Source of the DNA: Candidatus Auribacterota bacterium | Lineage (GTDB): Bacteria > Auribacterota > JAFGBW01 | NCBI GenBank assembly: GCA_016932965.1 | Contig: JAFGBW010000016.1 | Span: forward strand, 1 to 9,917 | Reading direction: 5' to 3' | Length of the DNA: 9,917 nucleotides | Shown: positions 6,923 through 9,687 of the stretch, one piece after another | Layout: every line of letters starts with the position of its first letter | Numbering within the stretch: the first letter of the stretch is position 1 | Made by a program: the position numbers and the translations under genes | Notes under the pieces: generated by a model | What the model was told of the DNA's origin: nothing | Databases searched by the model: none | What the model saw: only the letters and a program-made list of their open reading frames with translations

Positions 6923-6948
6923 TTCCCGGCTGAGTGTATGATATCATC

Positions 6949-6954
6949 AGGAGG
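6949..6954 (+). promoter_or_regulatory. Strong Shine-Dalgarno AGGAGG, misplaced relative to the glycosyltransferase start
   Basis: AGGAGG, with following TG giving AGGAGGTG, matches the anti-Shine-Dalgarno closely and resembles the site in front of hpf (9309-9318). Yet the best glycosyltransferase start, GTG at 7021, is 66 nt away. The nearest usable start is TTG at 6959 (4 nt spacing), which opens a 21-codon reading frame that stops at 7022-7024. Confidence 0.55.
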
Positions 6955-6960
6955 TGTGTT

Positions 6961-6990
6961 GCCACGAAGGATACAAAAAACACGAAGGCA
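6961..6990. repeat. CACGAAGG-type interspersed repeat unit
   Basis: The stretch holds GCCACGAAGGATAC followed by AAACACGAAGGC, two imperfect copies of a CACGAAGG motif separated by A-rich sequence. In one frame it reads as ATKDTKNTK, a low-complexity peptide I know from over-extended N-termini in many environmental genomes. It shares the ACACGAA core with the element at 1818-1881. It lies between a strong ribosome site and the conserved start of the next gene, which suggests insertion or expansion there. Confidence 0.55.
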
Positions 6991-7020
6991 TTTAAAAAAG
7001 ACCGGAAACCCTGCAGGGAT

Positions 7021-8133
7021 GTGAAAATCGTTTTCTATACACGGGAAGGGGCAGGTCAGGCTGGTGCGGAGTTTCGTTCATACGCCTTGTGTAGGGAATT
7101 AAGGCAAAAAGGTCTTGAGGCAGAGGTCCTATCCTTTCAGGATTTTCATTTCGTCCGTCCCAGGTTCCCGGGATGGCTTAATAAAACAGCCGTCAATGTC
7201 AAAGTTTTTCTGAAACTGATGAAATTAAGGCCAGGTGTCCTGGTTTTGCAAAGGATCAACCATCATTTTCCGGCTGCTTTTTTATACTTTCTTGTGAAAC
7301 GGCCCCGCCTGATACTGGATGTGGATGACTGGGAAAGCCGGGAGGACATGCATATCGGTTTCTCAGGTATGAGTAATTCCATCTCTGATATGGTCCTGAA
7401 AATAGTTTGCCGGTTTGCTGAATGTACCGTGGTATCCAGCCGATTTTTATTCGAGTACCTGACTCCATATTCAAAAAGGATCACACTCATTCCAAGCGGG
7501 ATTGATGACACTCGTTTTTATTTTGAAAGGAAACCCCTTCCCCTTATGCGTTTCGTCTGGTGCGGTTCTTTGGATAGAAAGGATACCCTGGAAGAAATCC
7601 TGCATTTAACCTCTCGGTTTCATCAAGCGGCCTTGAAAACATTGGAACTTCTCCTGATCGCAAGAGGGCTTTTTGTTTCTGATTTATCCAGGCATTTGCG
7701 GTCTCTGGGAAATTCTTCGATTAAATTGATGTCCCATGTTTTGTATTCTCGGATTCCAATTCTCTTACAGACCTGTCAGGCAGGGTTGTTGCCTTTATTT
7801 TCCCCGACCTGTTTCAATAGGGCAAAATCTCCGGTGAAACTGTTTGAATATATGGCATCAGGTCTTATTCCAGTGACCACCTATATCGGTGAAGCGGCTG
7901 AAATCATCACGGCTTCGTCAGGCTTTGCCGTATCGGATTCAAAGGAAATGATCCAGACAATGAATGATATTTCCAGCATGAATATCGAGGTCATTGAATC
8001 CATGATACGTAAAAACAGGGAAATGGTCCGGTCCCGGTTTTCCTTGTTACAGGTTGGACAATCCTGGGAGACTTTGTTGAAGAATGGAGGAAACAGCCTT
8101 GATCAGGTTATTTTGACAGGCGTATCAACATAA
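7021..8133 (+). CDS. Glycosyltransferase, GT-B fold (GT4-like)
   Basis: This probable glycosyltransferase uses a nucleotide sugar to build a surface glycan or glycolipid; donor and acceptor are unknown. From the GTG it has 370 residues. The N-terminal domain opens with VKIVFYTREGAGQAGAEFRS, a beta strand followed by a glycine-rich loop, and holds LILDVDDWE (about 98-105). The C-terminal domain has the GT-B landmarks TLIPSGID (155-162), FVWCGSLDRKD (178-188) and SPVKLFEYMASGLIPV (270-285), followed by GEAAEII. I chose GTG 7021 because the homologous fold starts there. The 29 codons upstream (from GTG 6934) are low-complexity repeat sequence, ATKDTKNTKAFKKD. Ribosome binding at 7021 is not obvious: AGGG is too close, and the strong AGGAGG is 66 nt away. 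It begins 98 bp after uvrA and ends 20 bp from the convergent hotdog operon. Confidence 0.85.
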   Translation: MKIVFYTREGAGQAGAEFRSYALCRELRQKGLEAEVLSFQDFHFVRPRFPGWLNKTAVNVKVFLKLMKLRPGVLVLQRINHHFPAAFLYFLVKRPRLILDVDDWESREDMHIGFSGMSNSISDMVLKIVCRFAECTVVSSRFLFEYLTPYSKRITLIPSGIDDTRFYFERKPLPLMRFVWCGSLDRKDTLEEILHLTSRFHQAALKTLELLLIARGLFVSDLSRHLRSLGNSSIKLMSHVLYSRIPILLQTCQAGLLPLFSPTCFNRAKSPVKLFEYMASGLIPVTTYIGEAAEIITASSGFAVSDSKEMIQTMNDISSMNIEVIESMIRKNREMVRSRFSLLQVGQSWETLLKNGGNSLDQVILTGVST

Positions 8134-8153: not shown

Positions 8154-8579
8154 TCAAAGCCGTTGGTTGATTGGCCTCTTGGAATGATTCGTTGTAGTAC
8201 AGGCAAGTTCGAAACGGCTTTTTTCTATTGTGCCCATGTCCGTTATTTTTACTGATACGAGAACCGTTTCATCTTGATGAACTGGGATGCATGAAATGCG
8301 CAGGGTTTGATCCGGAAGAACGGGATTTTTGAAACGCGCTTTGGAAACAGCTCTTACACAAAGTGTTGCTCTGGTGACTTTTTCCATCATCATTTTAATG
8401 CTCATTACTTGCACGACAGCAGGAAGGATTTTTTCATCAGGAAAATGCCCTGAAAAAGCCGGGAAATCAGCAGGAAAGCATAAGTCGAAAACGATTCCTC
8501 CCGGTCCATTTTGTTGCGGCTCAGGCAGGATCATTTGAAGGGCTTTTTCTATGGTCATCCGGGGATTCATTTTATCCAT
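8154..8579 (-). CDS. ApeI-like hotdog-fold thioester dehydratase subunit
   Basis: This small hotdog protein (141 residues) is related to FabA/FabZ 3-hydroxyacyl-ACP dehydratases. FSGHFPDEKILPAVVQ (about 42-57) matches the GHFPG-P-LPGVVQ signature, with the catalytic histidine at H45, and KARFKNPVLPDQTL (80-93) matches the second family motif. The central-helix acid that completes the active site (Glu in FabZ, Asp in FabA/ApeI) is not seen: the segment reads VVQVMSIKM. It may therefore be inactive alone. The ATG at 8579 has GAGG 7 nt upstream and overlaps the upstream hotdog gene by 13 bp. A second in-frame ATG at 8570 would make an ATGA overlap. No ketosynthase or ACP lies nearby, so the pathway (aryl-polyene-like lipid, modified fatty acid or other) is unknown. 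Confidence 0.72.
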   Translation of the reverse strand: MDKMNPRMTIEKALQMILPEPQQNGPGGIVFDLCFPADFPAFSGHFPDEKILPAVVQVMSIKMMMEKVTRATLCVRAVSKARFKNPVLPDQTLRISCIPVHQDETVLVSVKITDMGTIEKSRFELACTTTNHSKRPINQRL

Positions 8580-9025
8580 ACGGCAACCTCGCCACGGGCC
8601 AATTTTTCTTTGACGGAATATACGGTTCCTTCAACCCAGGAAAGATTTTCTAATTTTGAGATATATTTGATTCCGACAATGAGAAGTTCTCCACTTGTTG
8701 CACAACGATTGATTATAATATTTCTGAAAGCGGTGAGATAGGCTTGTGCTTTATGATTTGGATGCTGCCATGCTTCATGGATCAGGGCTGTCTGGGCAAT
8801 CAATTCTGGAAAAATCATTTCATCAACGGTTTTATCTTCTTTAAGGAAAAGGTTGTCATCCCTGATGAAGACTTCGGCTGTGGAGCGGGTCTTTTCTGTT
8901 TTGATCAGTCTATCAATGAGAAGCATCGGCGGTTTGTGTGGAACGAGATCAGAAATCATCTTTTTGTCAGCTATATGATCCAATAAGTTTTTAGCGGATA
9001 TGGGATGTTGTAAGCATTTAGGCAT
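8567..9025 (-). CDS. ApeP-like hotdog-fold dehydratase subunit
   Basis: This is a 152-residue hotdog-family protein, first gene of a two-gene operon. LVPHKPPMLLIDRLIK (about 27-42) is the conserved N-terminal strand and helix of FabZ/ApeP proteins, and FPELIAQTALIHEAW (72-86) is the central helix with the acidic residue E74. The GHFP histidine motif expected between them is absent; the region reads DDNLFLKEDKTVDEMI. The partner gene downstream shows the reverse pattern, keeping the histidine and lacking the acid. The two overlap by 13 bp and probably act together on an acyl thioester in the cytoplasm. The ATG at 9025 is the most upstream start. It lacks a clear Shine-Dalgarno, and an internal ATG at residue 23 just before the conserved domain is a possible alternative. 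It diverges from hpf. Confidence 0.7.
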   Translation of the reverse strand: MPKCLQHPISAKNLLDHIADKKMISDLVPHKPPMLLIDRLIKTEKTRSTAEVFIRDDNLFLKEDKTVDEMIFPELIAQTALIHEAWQHPNHKAQAYLTAFRNIIINRCATSGELLIVGIKYISKLENLSWVEGTVYSVKEKLARGEVAVWIK

Positions 9026-9187
9026 AGATAGTTTCTTGGTTGTTTTAGGGAGATTATAATCAAAATATTATAAAGATATGAATAATATAAAATATTCCTA
9101 CTGAGATAGAGAATAGGTTTTCATTTTACTAATATTGTACCGGCTTTGATAATTTTTCATAACCAGCTTATTTACAATTATTTAAGA

Positions 9188-9210: not shown

Positions 9211-9275
9211 GAAGTGAAGCCTATTCATGCTTCTCAACCATTTTTCAAATTCTTATTTCCTTTTTTAGGGGATTC

Positions 9276-9284
9276 TGCTAAAAT
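9276..9284 (+). promoter_or_regulatory. Possible extended -10 promoter element for hpf
   Basis: TGCTAAAAT fits an extended -10 (TG, one base, then TAAAAT, 5/6 to consensus). The expected -35 position holds only TTTCCT (9256-9261), so it would rely on the extended element. Transcription would start near 9291, about 30 nt ahead of the TTG start. No -24/-12 sigma54 site was seen. Confidence 0.35.
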
Positions 9285-9308
9285 TTCGATAGCAACTAAC
9301 AATCTTCT

Positions 9309-9318
9309 AAGGAGGTGT
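9309..9318 (+). promoter_or_regulatory. Near-perfect ribosome binding site that fixes the hpf start
   Basis: AAGGAGGTGT is complementary to the 16S rRNA tail over its first nine bases and precedes TTG at 9322 with normal spacing. It decides the start in favour of TTG over the in-frame GTG at 9214, which has no comparable site and adds 36 residues foreign to the family. Confidence 0.85.
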
Positions 9319-9321
9319 CAT

Positions 9322-9687
9322 TTGAAAATTCAGCTTACCGGACGGCATGTGGAAGTGACTGAGGCAATGAAATCTTTTACAGAAGAAAAGCTCTATACTT
9401 TAAACAAGTATTTTCATGCGCTTCTCAAGGCCCATGTCTTAATGGAAGTACAGAATTACAACCATAAATGCGAAATCAATCTCCACGGACGGCATTTGAA
9501 TTTAAACGCCAGCGAAACGACAAAAAATATGTATGAGTCTATATCGAAATGCGTTGACAAGCTTGAAAATCAGTTGAGGGCTTACAACCATCCCGAAAAG
9601 AAAAAGAGGAAAAAAATATCTTTGAAGGACATGGAACAAGAGATTGTAGGAATGCAGAATGACCTGCTTCTTCAGGAAACAGTCTGA
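9322..9687 (+). CDS. hpf: Ribosome hibernation promoting factor, short form (HPF/RaiA family)
   Basis: This protein binds the decoding region of the 30S subunit in stationary phase or stress and silences ribosomes, as dimers or inactive 70S. From TTG it has 121 residues. MKIQLTGRHVEVTEAMKSF is the conserved first strand and helix. EEKLYTLNKYF (21-31), HVLMEVQNYNHKCEINLHG (38-56) and LNASETTKNMYESISKCVD (61-79) complete the beta-alpha-beta-beta-beta-alpha fold. A lysine-rich patch (PEKKKRKK, 91-98) and a short tail follow. It lacks the extra C-terminal dimerisation domain of long HPF, so it is the short type. In many proteobacteria hpf sits beside rpoN and ptsN; here it stands alone, diverging from the hotdog operon and converging on an unknown gene that it overlaps by 16 bp. 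Confidence 0.92.
   Translation: MKIQLTGRHVEVTEAMKSFTEEKLYTLNKYFHALLKAHVLMEVQNYNHKCEINLHGRHLNLNASETTKNMYESISKCVDKLENQLRAYNHPEKKKRKKISLKDMEQEIVGMQNDLLLQETV

Follow-up and report, generated by a model that had tools for sequence, protein, structure and literature searches.

The two overlapping hotdog genes described here probably encode two unlike subunits of a single (3R)-3-hydroxyacyl-ACP dehydratase of the ApeI:ApeP kind, an enzyme that takes water out of fatty or polyene chains as they grow, as judged by comparison of their sequences with those of known systems. The genes, hereafter UP and DN, lie in a window of 9,917 bases, which is an entire contig of a 3.14 Mb genome (92.6% complete). The preliminary description of this DNA had proposed either an obligate heterodimer with one working active site or a non-catalytic acyl-binding complex. 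Descent lends good support to a heterodimer with one composite site, in that UP and DN fall in the clades of the two partner families and lead to the same three gene clusters; the split-site design itself, however, was already known from aryl polyene pigment clusters, and the pair is therefore less novel than that description implied. UP and DN are a divergent example of this design, and the unusual part is their orphan state.

UP (8567..9025, minus strand), the first gene of the putative operon, is called as an open reading frame (ORF) for an ApeP-type hotdog protein of 152 amino acids, and DN (8154..8579, minus strand), the second gene, as an ORF for an ApeI-type hotdog protein of 141 amino acids. 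The gene coordinates and the 13-bp overlap given previously match these ORFs, UP running from 9025 to 8567 and DN from 8579 to 8154, so that positions 8567..8579 of the minus strand belong both to the last codons of UP and to the first codons of DN. Reading of the same strand revealed a Shine-Dalgarno-like GAGG (8587..8590) within UP, 7 nt 5' of the DN start codon, and a sigma-70-like promoter match, TTCATA-18-TATAAT (9053..9082), 27 nt upstream of the UP start, although sigma-70-like sites are no commoner in this region than in shuffled sequences. A convergent glycosyltransferase gene (6934-8133, plus strand) is located 20 bases from the end of DN, and an HPF-like gene (9214-9687, plus strand) is divergent from UP; between these two neighbors UP and DN form a closed two-gene unit. 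The 13-bp overlap suggests translational coupling, and the closed layout, taken together with the overlap, the GAGG and the promoter-like match, suggests a single transcript with coupled translation. Both subunits would thus be made from one two-gene operon.

The catalytic residues of the FabZ family are divided between the two proteins, as had been noticed in the preliminary description. DN, which reads GHFPDEKILPAVVQVMSIKMM, keeps the histidine of a GHFP motif (H45; codon at 8445-8447, minus strand) and has no acid at the catalytic position: the residue 14 after H45, where FabZ has Glu, is a methionine (M59; codon at 8403-8405, minus strand). In UP the alignment likewise agrees with what had been read earlier from the sequence, namely that a GHFP motif is missing and that an acidic residue is kept within the stretch FPELIAQTA. 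This residue, E74 (codon at 8804-8806, minus strand), is aligned to the FabZ Glu, and the following Q78 to the Gln of the FabZ motif 'EAMAQ'. One MAFFT alignment (A4) set E66 of DN under the FabZ Glu, and in alignments A4-A7 MAFFT interrupted the central helix of DN with a gap; we rejected the E66 placement because the gapless motif puts M59 at that position. Both His and Glu are present in 57 of the 59 distinct FabZ-like ORFs of a sample collected by searches using UP and DN as queries, and the only two exceptions are UP and DN themselves.

In FabZ, the His and the Glu face one another across the dimer interface. An AlphaFold2 model of UP (pLDDT 79.4) has the hotdog fold, with E74 placed within the central helix (residues 67-86), and matches FabZ with a Z score of around 21 and chain 6qsr_B with a Z score of 18.6. 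The latter chain belongs to PDB entry 6QSR, entitled 'The Dehydratase Heterocomplex ApeI:P from Xenorhabdus doucetiae'. The alignment underlying the UP model consisted of FabZ sequences, which favors that fold, and structure matches were dropped as a means of discriminating between FabZ and ApeP, since Z scores of 21 and 18.6 do not separate them. A monomer model of DN, made from alignment A7 with FabZ sequences only, reached a pLDDT of 38 and was discarded.

Searches of Pfam, NCBIfam and PDB with the single sequences showed that UP and DN are both recognizably, though weakly, hotdog/FabZ-like. The ApeI-like and ApeP-like families of Pfam had been named earlier as a check on the pair, and the outcome was mixed: DN reached the ApeI-like family PF22818 with 23.8 bits (E 5.6e-5) but stayed under its cut-off of 28.5, and UP matched no hotdog family in Pfam, with no match to the ApeP-like family PF22817 at E<=1. 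The score of DN being under the PF22818 cut-off, we refer to an ApeI-type clade and not to membership of the Pfam family. A flexirubin-type I (ApeI-type) protein also falls narrowly under the PF22818 cut-off, and two flexirubin-type P (ApeP-type) proteins gave no PF22817 match either; Pfam-based annotation thus misses the ApeP-type half. The E-values to FabZ models in NCBIfam were 3e-7 for DN and 1.4e-8 for UP. Both proteins fall below the curated FabZ cut-offs, with 34.8 (UP) and 30.5 (DN) bits against 113 for NF000582, and 28.6 (UP) and 26.8 (DN) bits against 155 for TIGR01750, and neither combines His and Glu in one chain. A MaoC match in Pfam was obtained for DN, under the cut-off (E 0.036), and none for UP. 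In PDB, FabZ chains came top for both proteins, and the two chains of the ApeI:P heterocomplex appeared lower in the lists (6qsr_A for DN, E 0.044; 6qsr_B for UP, E 0.19). A wide search for relatives over 84,980 species genomes yielded eight loci, none of them a close relative, since each is FabZ-like and has the full active site, and no relatives were found among the viral contigs searched.

Plasmids, searched in six frames, were more informative. UP matched the ApeP region of an aryl polyene cluster from Klebsiella aerogenes, as well as a hypothetical protein from a flexirubin-type cluster of Aureispira. DN matched a hypothetical protein from another flexirubin-type cluster, this one from Persicobacter, and also one of the two proteins of a tandem hotdog pair beside a ketosynthase in Streptomyces. 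Profiles A1 (P-type) and A2 (I-type), built from these plasmid matches, were run over 384 genomes and detected tandem I-P pairs in three (G063, G210 and G348), full aryl-polyene-like clusters in three others (G077, G260 and G307), and further members in G376, G133, G135 and G273. By pairwise score, the nearest relatives of UP are the P domains of G077 (66 bits), G260 (45 bits) and G307 (40 bits), and those of DN are the I proteins of G260 (42 bits), G307 (40 bits) and G077 (35 bits). The most convincing indication that UP and DN descend from a pair of partners is this convergence of two mutually unrelated searches on one set of three clusters.

A tree of 34 sequences agrees with this placement. 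UP is found in a P clade that holds the Klebsiella ApeP (support 97/95), and DN in an I clade beside the I proteins of G077, G260 and G307 (support 92/91), both separate from FabZ; the Streptomyces pair lies outside the I and P clades, on long branches. A UP-type profile made without any ApeP found 6qsr_B as its best PDB match (9.5e-13), the next being FabZ (3e-8). A DN-type profile made without ApeI matched FabZ (1.1e-8) slightly better than the ApeI chains (8e-8 and 2e-7); since these values are about equal, the assignment of DN rests on the tree, on the Pfam result and on a shortened stretch after the central helix that DN has in common with most ApeI-type proteins. Among 290 genomes around G077 there were no closer relatives, only the same three P-type clusters and FabZ, and in 43 other genomes of the phylum neither the protein searches nor the profile matches listed included a UP/DN-like pair, all matches being at the level of FabZ.

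The gene arrangements of the relatives are diverse. The three genomes with tandem pairs (G063, G210 and G348) have an operon in the order ACP, ApeI-type, ApeP-type and AMP-ligase, with the I and P genes closely packed, and their I proteins carry Gly where the catalytic acid would be. In G260, G077 and G307 the ApeP-type domain is the C-terminal part of a fusion protein with radical SAM (about 500 amino acids), within the aryl-polyene-like clusters. G135 and G273 contain the I-type gene in a ligase/glycosyltransferase/acyltransferase locus and the P-type gene in a separate KR/KS locus, and these loci represent a split aryl-polyene-like pathway.

Residue patterns across the two families are consistent with a site shared between partners. 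All 13 P-type proteins keep the Glu and the Gln of the central helix, whereas the acid of the I-type proteins is kept in five of 15 and replaced in the other ten (by Met in DN, and by Gln, Phe or Gly elsewhere); this fits a site that needs the P-type Glu only. The presence of GHF in I-type and its absence from P-type proteins is not counted as independent evidence, because this feature was used in part to pick the sequences and would be circular as the sole column. Wherever an I-type gene was found among the sampled genomes (ten cases), a P-type gene is present too, even where the two are at separate loci, as in G135 and G273, and such co-occurrence is expected if the working site of the dimer combines the His of I with the Glu of P. 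The I-type proteins that keep the acid are likewise always accompanied by a P-type gene, either in the same genome or, for two stretches known from plasmids only, in the same cluster. Homologues that occur alone with a full active site had been named earlier as evidence against the pair; no P-type protein has a full site.

The preliminary description had also called UP and DN an orphan pair without ketosynthase, ACP or reductase. The absence of these genes is correct for the window, and hence for the whole contig, but the genome has ketosynthases and ACPs on other contigs. Three ketosynthase genes were found: a FabF with an ACP and a KR on contig C176, one in a lipid cluster on C106 with an ACP, a BioF/serine-palmitoyltransferase-like enzyme and an HpnA-like epimerase, and one on C120 (3-1103, minus strand) that is truncated at the contig edge. 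Within the sequence available on these contigs, none of the three loci lies in an aryl polyene/flexirubin-type cluster. No ketosynthase/chain-length-factor pair was seen in the genome, an aryl-polyene-type exporter was not found in it by a search run without a positive control, and its radical SAM proteins gave remote matches only. The genome has one canonical FabZ, which is fused to LpxC. The pair is accordingly an orphan in this assembly, with no aryl polyene cluster detected.

As candidate partners we weighed the lipid cluster of C106 and the ketosynthase of C120, and set both aside because nothing links them to UP or DN. The former (6413-15507 of the stretch C106:18000-34033) encodes a UbiA-like prenyltransferase, an FMN (OYE-like) oxidoreductase, the ACP, the BioF/serine-palmitoyltransferase-like enzyme, DAG-kinase-like and AIRS/ThiL-like proteins, the ketosynthase, the HpnA/OleD-like epimerase and a radical SAM protein, and represents a putative lipid-type pathway. 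Beyond its ketosynthase, the stretch C120:1-12000 contains genes for curlin-like repeat proteins, Csg-like genes and a BcsA-like glycosyltransferase gene, as read by eye from the translations. At 6229-7915 of C200, an ACP adjoins an AMP-ligase and a 586-amino-acid protein with a possible methyltransferase domain; this locus is a possible acyl-ACP source.

In the proposed heterodimer, the catalytic His (H45) would come from DN, and the central helix of UP, on the other side of the dimer interface, would contribute E74 and the neighboring Gln78. By the FabZ mechanism, H45 would abstract the alpha proton, and E74 would donate a proton to the hydroxyl as it leaves. Each heterodimer would then have one working site and one dead site, the latter formed by Met59 of DN and the His-less side of UP. 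The substrate may be an ACP-bound intermediate from the ketosynthases encoded elsewhere in the genome. As to its role, we tentatively suggest, as a possibility short of an even chance, that an aryl-polyene-type split dehydratase has come out of its cluster and is now a stand-alone two-gene module: a second, heterodimeric dehydratase for fatty acid or lipid synthesis, from which catalytic redundancy has been removed, leaving one His and one Glu per dimer.

Other explanations accept less of this scheme. The same heterodimer could have ceased to be a dehydratase, serving in non-catalytic acyl-ACP binding or in another hotdog reaction, for example thioester hydrolysis or decarboxylation. Hotdog proteins switch reaction readily, a precedent being AmcE, a FabZ-like hotdog protein with a conserved His that acts as a decarboxylase in cispentacin biosynthesis (PMC10698177), and both the loss of the second acid (M59 in DN) and the lack of a pathway context in the genome point the same way. 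However, the catalytic dyad is complete across the pair, the E-x-x-A-Q of UP is intact, and the other P-type proteins are all in the same state as UP, including the ApeP of working aryl polyene clusters; we therefore regard a change of function as unlikely. It is very improbable indeed that UP and DN act apart, as two homodimeric enzymes or thioesterases that merely adjoin, even though the hotdog fold, which both have, usually forms homodimers: each homodimer would be without half of the FabZ dyad in both of its sites, the two proteins were assigned independently to the two families that partner in a known heterocomplex, and the ten genomes sampled that have one partner type all have the other.

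The pair could also be a disused remnant of an aryl-polyene-like cluster that was lost or horizontally acquired. Its nearest relatives belong to full aryl-polyene-like clusters, none of which was found in this genome; the 43 other genomes of the phylum have no such pair among the matches listed; and no partner ketosynthase or ACP is assignable. The third-position G+C content of the pair is slightly low (0.39, compared with 0.45-0.49 in its neighbors), and acquisition from elsewhere is plausible. Disuse nevertheless seems quite unlikely, because both reading frames are intact with the key residues kept, the overlap and the GAGG before DN look maintained, and the two genes persist together though nothing else of a cluster did.

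If UP and DN do form a dehydratase, as we believe probable, they would be a minimal, naturally bicistronic ApeI:ApeP enzyme without the spare acid. With the dyad divided exactly in half between the subunits, the one-site model is directly testable. The pair indicates, moreover, that pairs of the ApeI:ApeP type can occur outside pigment clusters.

Among known systems, FabZ resembles UP and DN in fold and in residue positions, but FabZ forms homodimers with both residues in every chain. The mycobacterial HadAB and HadBC are also heterodimeric hotdog dehydratases, in which one partner has the catalytic residues (PMC5902629). They are of the MaoC/hydratase-2 type, with Asp and His both on HadB, whereas UP and DN are FabZ-like with a divided dyad and do not show a hydratase-2 motif that unites Asp and His in a single subunit. 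Flexirubin clusters, whose dehydratases include FlxF and FlxS in Chitinophaga (Bacteroidota) (PMC3992019), provide a closer parallel: their I proteins, like DN, retain GHFP but no longer the acid, in place of which they carry Gln or Phe, and their P proteins, like UP, keep the Glu and are without GHFP. Their I and P genes, however, are far apart in large pigment clusters, unlike the adjacent UP and DN. The radical-SAM/ApeP fusion clusters of G077, G260 and G307 are the nearest relatives of both proteins, but there the P domain is part of the fusion protein and the I gene is several genes away, whereas UP is free-standing and adjoins DN. ApeI/ApeP of aryl polyene biosynthesis has been described as heterodimeric with a single active site (PMC8041823), and the crystallized ApeI:ApeP complex (6QSR; PF22818 and PF22817) is like UP and DN in having unlike hotdog subunits, with the His on the ApeI-type and the Glu on the ApeP-type chain. 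It differs in that the UP and DN genes adjoin and overlap, P preceding I, and have none of the genes for KS, CLF, KR, ACP, ligase and exporter nearby; that DN has Met in place of the Asp found in the ApeI of 6QSR and of Klebsiella; and that both proteins score under the Pfam cut-offs. Thus, what the pair adds to an already known design is modest: an orphan two-gene form whose chains each have no more than one half of the dyad.
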